From Candidatus Pacearchaeota archaeon (GTDB taxonomy: Archaea; Nanobdellota; Nanobdellia; Pacearchaeales; DTIR01): 64,000 bases of DNA. This document shows, in pieces, positions 44,617 through 51,272 of this stretch. Each line of letters starts with the position of its first letter. Within the stretch, counting starts at the first letter, position 1. Under the pieces are notes generated by a model. The model had not been told where the DNA came from. It was given only the letters and a program-made list of their open reading frames with translations, and made no database searches. Location of the stretch: assembly GCA_018303805.1 (NCBI GenBank), contig JAGVXL010000001.1:369528-433527 (forward strand). Reading direction: 5' to 3'. The position numbers and the translations under genes are program-made.

Positions 44617-45504
44617 TTACTTTATCCCTTTTTTGATGCAATACCATTTTAATATGCCGGTATTGCCAAACCACGTGCTTATCATGTCTGTGATAAGGCC
44701 TAAGGTAAGTATGAAGAATATCTCAGACAAAACAGGAGAAAGGCCCTTTACTATCATAAAAGTCAAGAAAACTGCTGTGAGAGATGTGAAAGTCATTGCA
44801 AGCCCTGTTTTTAATGCAGATTTAAATGCTTTGTTAAGCGGCACATCCCCTTTTCTCAGAACCCTATTAGTGAGCAGGATATCTGTATCTACACTGTAGC
44901 CTATCAGCATAAGAAATGCTGCGATGCCCGCGCCTGAAATCCTGAATCCTATCAAATCAAGAAAGGCAAGGGGCACAATTATGTCTGTAAATCCCGCCTG
45001 GATAACTGCGATAGAAGGTATTATTGTTCTAAACAGGAAAAAAACAACAACCGCCATCAATAGGAACGCAAGTATTAATGCGTTTCTCAATTCCTTATAG
45101 AAACTCTTGCTAAGAGCAGAGCCTGTGAATTCCACGCTTGAATTCTTTTCTGTGAGGTTATAACCCAAAAATGTTTCAATGGCGGGAGTAATTTCCTCTG
45201 GCTTCTTCTCTGTTTCTATTGAAAAAGCCAGTTGCTTGCCTGTCTGCAAGTCGCTCAAGCGCCTGACAGTAACATCTGGAAATGCTTTTCTTACTTCCCC
45301 TATATCATTATCAGCATAGATAGTCAGGGTTGTGCCCCCAGTAAGCGCAACATCTTTGTGCATGATATCGCCTGTTCTTAAATAGAAGAGAACTAAATAA
45401 ATCAATGCGGACAATGTCAAAAGCAGGGATATCGCAAATAAATATTTCCAATATTTATCATACCAGCTTCTGCTGCCGTATTTGCTTTCCTCTTCCTTAT
45501 CCAT
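44617..45504 (-). CDS. secF: Preprotein translocase subunit SecF
   Basis: ALTGGTTLTIY; LMLIGYSVDTDILLTNRV; GLAMTFTSLTAVFLTFM. Confidence 0.92.
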   Translation of the reverse strand: MDKEEESKYGSRSWYDKYWKYLFAISLLLTLSALIYLVLFYLRTGDIMHKDVALTGGTTLTIYADNDIGEVRKAFPDVTVRRLSDLQTGKQLAFSIETEKKPEEITPAIETFLGYNLTEKNSSVEFTGSALSKSFYKELRNALILAFLLMAVVVFFLFRTIIPSIAVIQAGFTDIIVPLAFLDLIGFRISGAGIAAFLMLIGYSVDTDILLTNRVLRKGDVPLNKAFKSALKTGLAMTFTSLTAVFLTFMIVKGLSPVLSEIFFILTLGLITDMISTWFGNTGILKWYCIKKGIK

Positions 45505-45695: not shown

Positions 45696-45899
45696 GCGCC
45701 GGTGGTCCAATGGCTAAGAGTTCTTAAAATGAACTAGCAAACTTCAGCCTTCCATAAGCCTTCTTTTCTTAGCAAAGGAAAGCAAAGCTTTCCTGTGCCC
45801 CGAAAAGCACAGCTTTTCGCGGAAAGAAAAGAACCCTTGGGAAGAAAAAGGACTATAAGAGGAAAGCTGATTATCTGGGTTCGAGTCCCAGCCGGCGCA
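45696..45899 (+). tRNA. tRNA-Gly(TCC) with two introns (45719-45740 and 45755-45864)
   Basis: Spliced 72-nt cloverleaf GCGCCGG-TG-GTC CAATGGCTAA GAC-T-TCAGC CTTCCAA GCTGA-TTAT-CTGGG TTCGAGT CCCAG-CCGGCGC-A; both introns give 3-4-3 BHB geometry. Confidence 0.85.
45763..45831 (+). other. Three-way-junction structured element, copy C, inside the long tRNA-Gly intron
   Basis: CTTTTCTT/AAGAAAAG outer helix; AGGAAAGC-AAA-GCTTTCCT; GTGCCC linker; CGAAAAGC-ACA-GCTTTTCG; CGG. Confidence 0.75.
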
Positions 45900-47277: not shown

Positions 47278-48315
47278 GTGTACATGAAAGAAGAAGGCAA
47301 GGACGAGGGGAACAAGCTTTCTGGGACTATAGTTAATTTTCTTCTTGATGGGCCTGCATCAATAAATGATGTATGCAAGAAACTAGAGATATCATGGGCT
47401 ACTGCAAAGTCTGCTCTAGAAGAAATGGAGGCAAAAGGCACTGTAAAAGAAATTGTTTCTAATCCTAAAATAAGAATATTCAAACTTTCAATTGATCCTG
47501 CTTTTTATGGTGTGCCACTAACAAAAGAGCAGAAAGGGCAGGCTTTATTTTTGTTCCAAAATATAAGGCAAGAATGGCGGAATGATAAGCCATTATTAGC
47601 TACTACATTACATAAGATAGCAGTAGATGTAGCAAAAGAATGCAAATGTGATATTCCTGTTGCAACCTTCCACTATGGAATGGTTGTTCCTGTGGTAGAT
47701 ACTGCCCTTTTTGGCTATAGAGAACCAGCTAATTCAGCTCAGATTATCCAAAGCATAAGAAAAACAATACCTTCCCATACTAACAATTCCAAAGAAGAAA
47801 GAGAAAATCAATACAAAAAATATGATATGGTGTTATTTCAATCCAAAGAAAAATTAACAGAATTATGGACTAACTCTAAAAAAGAGATATCTAAGATAGA
47901 TAATAAAGGTGTTCAGTTAGCACTCACTGACTTTCTAGTTAAATGCCCCACAGACAAGAATAATTCCGAATTGTTTGATTTATGTTATAGCTTTTCTAGT
48001 AAAGTAAATGGTTTAATCTTGACTAAAGCATTTTCTTCTCATCTAGAGGAAGTAAAAGAATCCTTTGATGTTCTATGGGATTTTATTACAACCAATATAT
48101 TCTTTAAGGAAGTTGGAAGGTATATAGGAGAAGACAAGAAAGAGGTATTTGAATATATAAAGTCTTCTCAAATCTTAGTAAAAAAAGCCAATGTGGAAGA
48201 AAGAATAAATTATTTAGGTTCATTAATAAATCTAAGTGAAGAGATTCAGTTGCCTGCAGATGAACAATCATTAGCAATTAGAAGGATACTTGCAGAGGGT
48301 GCAGAGGAGGAGTAA
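47278..48315 (+). CDS. Winged-HTH N-terminus with long uncharacterised C-terminal region
   Basis: GPASINDVCKKLEISWATAKSALEEMEAKGTV HTH; TAATG overlap with the next ORF. Confidence 0.6.
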   Translation: MYMKEEGKDEGNKLSGTIVNFLLDGPASINDVCKKLEISWATAKSALEEMEAKGTVKEIVSNPKIRIFKLSIDPAFYGVPLTKEQKGQALFLFQNIRQEWRNDKPLLATTLHKIAVDVAKECKCDIPVATFHYGMVVPVVDTALFGYREPANSAQIIQSIRKTIPSHTNNSKEERENQYKKYDMVLFQSKEKLTELWTNSKKEISKIDNKGVQLALTDFLVKCPTDKNNSELFDLCYSFSSKVNGLILTKAFSSHLEEVKESFDVLWDFITTNIFFKEVGRYIGEDKKEVFEYIKSSQILVKKANVEERINYLGSLINLSEEIQLPADEQSLAIRRILAEGAEEE

Positions 48316-48953
48316 TGAACTGGTTTTTGGATATGTGCATTCTTATCTTCTATTCTTCAGGAGATAAAAGCAAATTCTCAGTAAAAACCTTAGAATTTAT
48401 GAGCAAGCACAAAGAGGAAAAGTATTTAGTCTGTTATTATATCGTTGAAGAGAATCTCCCAAAATGGATAAAAAGACAACAAATTATAGTAAAGGAAGTC
48501 ATAAGAAAAATTAAAAAGGATTCTTATAATATTGGAGAATCTGATGAAGGCTCTTTTTTATATCCTCAAGACAAGCAAAAAGCAGAAAAGCTTTTCATCA
48601 AATCTAGCTTAACTGTTGATAAAACTAACTTTATAACTGAACTGCAGATTATACAAAAAGAACAGGAATTTAAATTAATCAGATTTATAGAGCAAAGGGT
48701 TGAAAAAGTTATTCCAATAAAAGATATTGATACAGAGCTAAAAAGTAAATTATTTACTTACACAAACAATATTTCTGACTCCATTACAATTGCCTCTGGA
48801 ATTCAACAACATAACAAGGAACATCTGATTTTATTAACAAGCGACAAAAAAGATTGGAGAAGAGAGAATCTAGAATTAGCAGTAAATGAAAATTCCAAAC
48901 TTGCAGAGAAATATAAAAAGATTCCAGAAATAAAATATATTCAAGATATATAA
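48315..48953 (+). CDS. Putative PIN-like domain protein
   Basis: NWFLDMCILIFY N-terminal Asp; DSITIASGIQQHNKEHLILLTSDKKDW C-terminal PIN-like signature. Confidence 0.55.
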   Translation: MNWFLDMCILIFYSSGDKSKFSVKTLEFMSKHKEEKYLVCYYIVEENLPKWIKRQQIIVKEVIRKIKKDSYNIGESDEGSFLYPQDKQKAEKLFIKSSLTVDKTNFITELQIIQKEQEFKLIRFIEQRVEKVIPIKDIDTELKSKLFTYTNNISDSITIASGIQQHNKEHLILLTSDKKDWRRENLELAVNENSKLAEKYKKIPEIKYIQDI

Positions 48954-49923: not shown

Positions 49924-49965
49924 AATGCCCCGGAGGATTTGAACCCCCGACCCTCTCATCATAAG
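49924..49965 (-). other. tRNA 3'-half-like fragment
   Basis: GAGAGGGTC GGGGG-TTCAAAT-CCTCC GGGGCAT on minus strand; no matching 5' half adjacent. Confidence 0.5.
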
Positions 49966-49980
49966 CAGGAGATAGCAAAA

Positions 49981-50055
49981 CGTCCCTGGCAGGATTTGAA
50001 CCTGCAACCTACAGCTTAGGGGGCTGCCGCGCTATCCAAGTTGCGCCACAGGGAC
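49981..50055 (-). tRNA. tRNA-Arg(CCT)
   Basis: GTCCCTG-TG-GCGC AACTTGGATA GCGC-G-GCAGC CCCCTAA GCTGT-AGGTT-GCAGG TTCAAAT CCTGC-CAGGGAC-G. Confidence 0.8.
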
Positions 50056-51027
50056 ATTATTCTTCAACCATGATTGATACTTTAAAAAATGTTTGGGATT
50101 GCTTGAGCCTATCTCTCTCATCCATTTTGTAACTTGTATGCTGCCTTTTAAAATCAATTCATATTCTCTAAATCTAACCTTAAAGTTATTAGCTAGAAGT
50201 TGTTTATTTAACTGAGCCAGCAAAAATGGCGATTTCATTGATATTGTAATAATGGGGTAAGGATTTCCAGAGGGAGTTTTATCTAAATAAAAAGATCCAT
50301 CGGTATCAAAAATTCCCCTTATAACATACTTAATTTTATTCCAATCATTAGCAAGGCTATCTTTTATTCTCAGATTTACTTTTTTGCCTATAGGGAATTC
50401 TAATTCTTTATTCATAAAAAGAATTAATTGTTTATGATAGCACAATATTTCCATCCCTTTACAGTCATTCTTATACTTAATTGCAACTTTTTTATTAAAC
50501 AATTTTTTAATAATCTCTTTCAAAAATAGTAAATAGGCTTTGTCTAATTCGGAATGACCGCTTATACCAATCAGCCAAATTCTCTTTTTATAGGCATAAG
50601 ACAAAGAACTTAACCATCCATCCCCTAATAAAGCTCCATAAAATTCTAAAAATAAGGGGTCTTCTATATCTATTCTGAGATTATTTTTTGCTTTTTCTTC
50701 CCTGATTAATGCACTAATCATAGCTCCTTTTAATTGTCTTTTCTTAATCTCTTTGATACCATATTTTTGAACTAATACTCTATAAGTTTCTTGCCCTCCT
50801 TTAATCTGCCCCCAGTTATCTGGTCTTTCATCAATTATTTCTAAATTGAGATTTGATGGTATAATCTCCCGGGGGACATATCTTTTAGGGTTATGTAACC
50901 ACTTGTCTAATGTTGAAAAAGGAATACCTAACTTTTGGGATAATTGGCTTAATGTTTCTACTTTGTTTTTTTGTTTTAAATAACCAAACAATCTCATTCT
51001 CGAAGTTTTTGATAATAAGATTCTCAT
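50032..51027 (-). CDS. LAGLIDADG homing endonuclease with N-terminal HTH
   Basis: EFYGALLGDGWLS and IRGIFDTDGSFYL motifs; HTH LSQLSQKLGIPFSTLDKWL; C-terminus VPVAQLG* read from tRNA-Arg. Confidence 0.88.
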   Translation of the reverse strand: MRILLSKTSRMRLFGYLKQKNKVETLSQLSQKLGIPFSTLDKWLHNPKRYVPREIIPSNLNLEIIDERPDNWGQIKGGQETYRVLVQKYGIKEIKKRQLKGAMISALIREEKAKNNLRIDIEDPLFLEFYGALLGDGWLSSLSYAYKKRIWLIGISGHSELDKAYLLFLKEIIKKLFNKKVAIKYKNDCKGMEILCYHKQLILFMNKELEFPIGKKVNLRIKDSLANDWNKIKYVIRGIFDTDGSFYLDKTPSGNPYPIITISMKSPFLLAQLNKQLLANNFKVRFREYELILKGSIQVTKWMREIGSSNPKHFLKYQSWLKNNVPVAQLG

Positions 51028-51272
51028 TAGAAAAAGAGATAATTAGTATATTTAAATTTTTCTCTATCCAAACTGAGCTAGGGGAGCATGAAAAGGCAAG
51101 AATAAATGCATATAAAAATTTATTTCTTAATTCAAATCACGCAAAGTGTATGGTAGTTCTTTAATGGGCTGTATTAATTTGAGCTTTTCGTATTTCTTTA
51201 CCAACTCCATTTGTTTTTCAAAATTTTTTAAGAGTTCTTCTGCTCTCTCAAGCTCTTAAATGGATTCTAATT

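Follow-up and report, generated by a model that had tools for sequence, protein, structure and literature searches.

Reviews of archaeal tRNA splicing associate noncanonical and multiple introns with the (αβ)2 and ε2 forms of the splicing endonuclease EndA, which carry CSL or ASL loops (PMC4033280, PMC4090602, PMC12397907). A D-arm example is the tRNA-Thr(GGU) gene of Caldiarchaeum, which has an intron at position 24/25 and a nearby tRNA fragment linked to a mobile element; the model put forward for it invoked an integrase, and the term "homing endonuclease" does not occur in the text (PMC3293823). Randau and Söll, as cited there, proposed that introns protect tRNA genes from integrating elements, an idea put forward without a proven attacker. 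LAGLIDADG endonucleases are already known from group I introns in the rRNA of Pacearchaeota (PMC6125680). Endonucleases that insert into the D-arm of tRNA genes and bring a replacement tRNA with them did not turn up in our search of the open-access literature, including that on DPANN archaea.

The genome described here bears on why introns occupy odd places in archaeal tRNA genes. For its D-arm intron, a specific gene with a specific site can be named as the candidate attacker, present in the same genome as the intron, and sister genomes show both the attacked and the unattacked state of tRNA-Gly(UCC), so that the protection idea becomes directly testable.

A tRNA-Gly(UCC) gene with introns in the D-stem and at position 37/38

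The window is a 64,000-nt stretch of DNA from a Candidatus Pacearchaeota archaeon. Its forward strand carries at 45696–45899 a tRNA-Gly(UCC) gene with three exons (45696–45718, nt 1–23; 45741–45754, nt 24–37; 45865–45899, nt 38–73) and two introns, one of 22 nt in the D-stem at 23/24 (intron 1, 45719–45740) and one of 110 nt at 37/38 (intron 2, 45755–45864). A sequence-only reading of the DNA had proposed this gene with its two introns; the positions proved correct, and the exons match those of orthologs. Excision of both introns joins GCGCCGGTGGTCCAATGGCTAAG-ACTTCAGCCTTCCA-AGCTGATTATCTGGGTTCGAGTCCCAGCCGGCGCA to a 72-nt product with anticodon UCC, and in the clean cloverleaf that the same reading had foreseen all pairs of the acceptor stem (7/7), the anticodon stem (5/5) and the T-stem (5/5) are intact. 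Exon 3 matches the T-arm model with 33.0 bits, and the spliced product is a normal tRNA that agrees with intronless orthologs. Neither ARAGORN nor Rfam RF00005 detects the gene, as expected from the presence of two introns. The two missed calls would also fit a pseudogene or an assembly artefact, a very improbable reading in view of the perfect stems after splicing, the conserved place beside secF and the lack of any second tRNA-Gly(UCC), which had been named as a possible counter-argument, among the 35 T-arm matches of the genome (a 575-kb contig rated 77% complete).

Intron 1 (AGTTCTTAAAATGAACTAGCAA) forms a central helix GCTA/TAGC between the bulges AG^A and AA^A, followed by a 4-bp inner hairpin GTTC/GAAC; both helices in exact register have a frequency of 8.5e-5 among shuffled inserts. 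Its position can be written as 23/24 or 24/25 because an A is repeated. The exact 3-4-3 bulge-helix-bulge (BHB) initially assigned to it stands with regard to helix and bulges, but the exon-side (outer) helix is absent, and the motif is BHBh′ rather than a full hBHBh′. An isolated 47-nt fragment with intron 1 favors another pairing (−9.3 versus −6.1 kcal/mol), which, together with the missing exon-side helix, means that the BHB must form within the whole precursor. Intron 2 has the canonical position and, as previously read, pairs CTTC/GAGG between the bulges CA^T and AA^A. A 3-4-3 bulge-helix-bulge is present at both introns, and it is well supported by the sequence that the gene is a functional tRNA-Gly(UCC), from which the EndA of the cell would remove both introns at these motifs. 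The D-arm intron is noncanonical, as had been recognized, with the 24/25 intron of Caldiarchaeum tRNA-Thr as a known example, and taken alone the gene is a further case of the known D-arm-introned archaeal tRNAs.

Conservation of the gene and invasion of its orthologs

A distance of 191 bp separates the tRNA-Gly(UCC) gene from the secF start (44617–45504, minus strand), and this arrangement is conserved, making secF a syntenic marker for orthologs. From 112 secF loci of Pacearchaeales relatives, found by an alignment-based scan, an automatic rule that also lets in a few other tRNAs picked 79 tRNA-Gly(UCC)-like genes. Many of these have a 37/38 intron, and the window's gene is the only one with a D-arm intron, indicating that intron 1 was either gained locally or lost everywhere else. 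The intronless ortholog of genome G026 (L072) has the D-arm GTCCAATGGCTAAGAC, identical to the spliced D-arm of the window's gene. In the ortholog of G001 (L061), which belongs to the same family, the sole intron is the one at 37/38.

The orthologous tRNA-Gly(UCC) beside secF is immediately preceded by an endonuclease gene in at least four sister genomes (L070, L084, L108 and L156), with a 5′ tRNA fragment that is clear in L070 and L156 and degenerate in L084 and L108. An endonuclease also abuts this secF-linked tRNA in L251 and L279, two loci from the endonuclease search, and L251 and L156 encode one and the same enzyme. Endonucleases of the L251 group are inserted about 2 nt further on in the tRNA-Gly(UCC) genes of relatives, at 25/26.

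Intron 1 might be what is left of an element at this same tRNA, whose replacement tRNA-Gly brought the intron along and whose endonuclease was later lost. Besides the invaded orthologs, such a history is favored by the existence of replacement tRNAs with D-arm introns in eight loci (L231 to L286) and of an element without endonuclease, at tRNA-Arg(GCG), in the same genome. Upstream of 45696, however, we found no endonuclease gene or trace of one and no 5′ tRNA fragment, and the exons look like those of vertical orthologs. We consider this origin unlikely.

The splicing endonuclease and other tRNA introns of the genome

The type of the splicing endonuclease, which the sequence-only reading had marked for identification, could be assigned from a 191-aa EndA encoded at G000:C1:516929–517504, with N- and C-terminal domains (PF01974 and PF02778). 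The genome has a single match to each domain, both in this ORF, and neither a second EndA subunit nor a fused three-unit protein was found. Residues 26–191 align to the homotetrameric EndA of M. jannaschii with one single-residue gap, hence without a loop insertion, and neither a CSL nor an ASL loop is seen in this alignment; the single detected EndA is thus of the α4 type. A clear PF01974 gene is present in 52 of 55 related genomes, with no clear second subunit and other matches weak or fragmentary. A second D-arm intron of the genome lies in tRNA-Val(GAC) (L013). Two D-arm introns beside an α4-like enzyme as the sole detected EndA run contrary to the reviews, in which enzymes of this kind are by rule restricted to canonical introns.

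At least 12 of the approximately 31 tRNAs of the genome have a 37/38 intron, and several of these share a repeat. The palindromic repeat GCCCCGAAAAGC..GCTTTTCGCGG lies at 45783–45830 in intron 2, whose position is shared by the 37/38 intron of the G001 ortholog; the repeat recurs at L028, L041, L042 and L044–L059, where it is found elsewhere in the genome as well as within the 37/38 introns of the tRNAs for Gly, Glu, Cys, Arg and Ser. Half of the 37/38 introns have a three-pair central helix with nt 35 unpaired, a pattern seen without exception in those of tRNA-Met, Phe, Thr(GGT), Arg(TCG), Cys and Arg(TCT), and such helices might point to relaxed cutting by an α4-type EndA. No tRNAs for Asp, His, Trp, Tyr, Asn and Gly(GCC) are among the 35 T-arm matches of the contig. 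Since there is also no overlap between the contig ends, the assembly probably lacks part of the genome.

A homing element in a tRNA-Arg(CCU) gene of the window

A homing element occupies positions 49926–51087 on the minus strand of the window, inside an old tRNA-Arg gene, and carries a complete tRNA-Arg(CCU). It begins with the 5′ remnant GCTCCCCTAGCTCAGTTTGGATAGAG of the old tRNA-Arg(CCU) (51062–51087, minus strand), broken in the D-arm, and continues with a TATA-like box TTTAAATA (51049–51056, minus strand) and the gene of a 331-aa LAGLIDADG homing endonuclease (50032–51027, minus strand; PF14528), an arrangement repeated in many related elements. The end of the endonuclease gene overlaps the intact replacement tRNA-Arg(CCU) (49981–50055, minus strand), behind which the 3′ remnant of the old gene, with a degenerate anticodon arm and a T-arm, is retained (49926–49976, minus strand). 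The protein has two LAGLIDADG motifs with the invariant D136 and D243, and its structural model (mean pLDDT 87.8) closely matches I-Tsp061I and I-DmoI. By motifs and fold the window enzyme is a LAGLIDADG homing endonuclease, and specific cleavage of the uninterrupted target is predicted for it. Relatives of the element occupy the same tRNA in L219 and L248. Elsewhere in the window, two overlapping genes at 47278–48953 (plus strand), encoding a wHTH protein of 345 aa with a weak TrmB match and a protein of 212 aa that matches no Pfam family, look like a two-gene module.

A tRNA-Gly gene broken at the position of intron 1

A T-arm model search of the genome recovered all known tRNAs and, just downstream of intact tRNAs, orphan 3′ fragments, three of which are remnants of broken tRNA genes. 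One of these loci, L184, concerns another tRNA-Gly and consists of a tRNA-Gly 5′ half GCGCTAGTGGTCCAATGGCTAAG ending at 23/24, a TATA-like box, a gene for a 339-aa LAGLIDADG protein and an intact tRNA-Gly(CCC), followed by a 3′ remnant. The acceptor strand of this remnant is complementary to the 5′ half in 7/7 positions. The 17 nt GTGGTCCAATGGCTAAG before the L184 break are the same as the 17 nt before intron 1; the D-arm context at the putative target site is GTGGTCCAATGGCTAAGAC. Since the L184 element broke a tRNA-Gly with these same 17 nt, an uninterrupted tRNA-Gly(UCC) would be expected to be a target as well. The resident L184 enzyme is not close kin of the L251-group endonucleases found at tRNA-Gly(UCC) in relatives.

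The tRNA-Arg(GCG) locus (L200/L009, G000:C1 around 484690–484890) has a degenerate 5′ fragment and a 3′ T-arm remnant and lacks an endonuclease. ARAGORN reports its tRNA as Asn(GTT); splicing of a 13-nt 37/38 intron yields Arg(GCG).

We rejected the orphan 3′ fragments as halves of split tRNAs, because 5′ halves and endonuclease genes are found in the same loci. The 5′ halves reach no further than the D-arm, two of the three loci lack nt 24 to about 44, and the halves do not make a whole tRNA. A nested arrangement of a tRNA within an intron was also discarded, as there are no complete 3′ exons.

Large spliceable introns were considered as well, in which the endonuclease genes would be intron parts, with the 5′ fragment and the downstream sequence as exons of one tRNA. 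The nearest enzymes in sequence and fold, I-DmoI and I-Tsp061I, do come from spliced archaeal rRNA introns. Yet the downstream tRNA is complete by itself in the three loci of the genome, the endonuclease ORFs overlap this complete tRNA, and the anticodon arm of the 3′ remnants is absent or damaged; the two intact exons expected of an endonuclease-bearing BHB intron of the I-DmoI type are not seen. A group I intron was not found in the window either, and in five elements Rfam finds nothing but tRNAs. We regard large introns as quite improbable here.

Homing elements at tRNA genes of related archaea

Of 200 Pacearchaeales genomes, 80 encode relatives of the window endonuclease; for the L184 enzyme, relatives were found across the phylum in 125 of 371 genomes. 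The typical Pacearchaeales element comprises a truncated 5′ tRNA half, a TATA box, the endonuclease gene, a complete replacement tRNA and often an old 3′ remnant. Among 70 loci, 45 have a same-strand T-arm no more than 200 nt downstream of the endonuclease gene (opposite strand, 2 of 70), and an A-box precedes within 100 nt upstream in 42 of 70, compared to 20% in shuffles. In many loci the similarity to tRNA ends in the D-arm, with the TATA box of the endonuclease immediately behind it. The 3′ remnants of L219, L223 and L224 are kept and pair with the 5′ half; a matched acceptor alone is a weak signal, seen in 15 of 70 loci against 8.5% per control pairing, because many remnants are degenerate. 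A downstream T-arm is also present at 9 of 17 loci from other orders, none of which has one on the opposite strand. Viral contigs, searched with peptide patterns, yielded no protein related to the window endonuclease.

The best endonuclease match is associated with the same tRNA isoacceptor in 40 of 45 cases, where 5.5 are expected (0 of 10,000 permutations reached this value). Such clustering is as expected of target-specific homing and may lend indirect support to the predicted specific cleavage.

Shorter endonucleases lie directly upstream of tRNA-Ile(GAT), with no clear 5′ fragment, in L239, L250, L254, L261, L264, L267, L278 and L284, and are perhaps free-standing. In L329 and L353, from other orders, the endonuclease-linked tRNAs have apparent extra introns in the T-loop.

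D-arm introns as candidate resistance alleles

By inspection, D-arm introns are found in 8 of 41 endonuclease-linked tRNAs (L231, L237, L240, L247, L255, L269, L286 and L243) compared to 1 of 148 others. One blind rule applied to both sets gave 9/41 versus 5/148 (Fisher p = 4e-4), in related samples with a control that is not matched for tRNA kind, the introned cargo being tRNA-Gln, Glu and Val. Further D-arm introns are found in other orders. In tRNA-Gln the intron (GGTCAA^A, L237) lies at the position of endonuclease insertion, between GGTCAA and ACAATAA; a survey of tRNA-Gln, with about 150 contiguous, nearly full-length matches, covers best matches only and provides no fair base rate. Most replacement tRNAs are without a D-arm intron, so that any resistance of these must come from sequence differences.

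From what can be read directly in the DNA (gene structure, motifs, the EndA gene, the elements and the shared site), we propose the following course of events. A LAGLIDADG endonuclease would cut a tRNA gene in the D-arm, and its own gene would be copied into the break by recombination, leaving the old tRNA in pieces. In place of the old gene, the element would provide a whole tRNA of matching type, which the enzyme presumably does not cut. An intron at the cut site in the D-arm would split the recognition sequence, and the introned tRNA-Gly(UCC) should be immune to the resident L184 endonuclease. With moderate confidence, we regard intron 1 as spliced by EndA and as occupying a homing site that it probably masks, which would explain its retention. 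Most likely, it confers resistance as such an allele or, failing that, is a vestige of a former element that carried it. Against this reading stand the lack of an endonuclease gene and of a 5′ fragment at this tRNA, the 25/26 insertion site of the L251 group and the distant kinship of the L184 enzyme to that group.

An ordinary noncanonical archaeal intron, acquired by transposition as in Thermoproteales, would be another origin, with the overlap with the homing site being due to chance and the D-arm being tolerant of introns and conserved. Introns are frequent in the tRNAs of this genome, several of them with a common repeat, and there is precedent for the transposition of introns on a large scale (Fujishima 2010, as cited in PMC4033280). 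On the other hand, intron 1 has no evident sequence kinship to the 37/38 introns, its position coincides exactly with the break in a paralogous tRNA-Gly, and tRNAs linked to an endonuclease have D-arm introns more often than others. A chance overlap thus appears rather unlikely to us.

Returning to the masked homing site, our data suggest that D-arm introns mark a site of homing-endonuclease attack, and they may block it. On the wider proposal, that Pacearchaeales and their relatives carry a natural cleave-and-rescue element and that D-arm introns are its resistance alleles or an immunity carried by it, we judge the chances to be even. If true, it would provide a selective cause for noncanonical tRNA introns.

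Comparison with known systems

Like the noncanonical BHB introns of Thermoproteales, Nanoarchaeum, ARMAN and Caldiarchaeum, intron 1 is short, lies outside 37/38, has a 3-4-3 motif and restores the cloverleaf upon removal; in contrast to these, it is found in a Pacearchaeales genome with a single α4-type EndA, and homing endonucleases use the site where it lies. With I-DmoI and I-Tsp061I from archaeal rRNA BHB introns, the enzymes described here share family, fold, the two motifs and an archaeal host, but they are located in tRNA D-arms, have their own TATA box and are followed by a complete replacement tRNA, and they do not evidently lie within a spliced intron. SegB of T4-like phages, a GIY-YIG type enzyme, is a free-standing endonuclease encoded beside tRNA genes, and it favors the transmission of the tRNA region to progeny. 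Unlike the elements here, SegB is not known to break a tRNA gene in the D-arm and to bring a replacement of the same isoacceptor. Integrases of the SSV and pNOB8 type likewise target a tRNA, restore its function and leave a tRNA fragment, whereas the elements described here show no integrase gene, break the D-arm with both a 5′ and a 3′ remnant, and bring a replacement tRNA that differs in sequence from the remnant.

By analogy, synthetic cleave-and-rescue and home-and-rescue drives (PMC7951863, PMC7968924) may have a common logic with these elements, in which an essential gene is cut, the element is inserted and a cut-resistant copy is provided; the elements here occur in nature, use a LAGLIDADG enzyme for cutting and rescue with a tRNA. 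D-arm BHB introns, protection by introns against integrases and LAGLIDADG enzymes in archaeal rRNA introns are each known, and what possibly goes beyond them is a D-arm intron in the context of a homing element.
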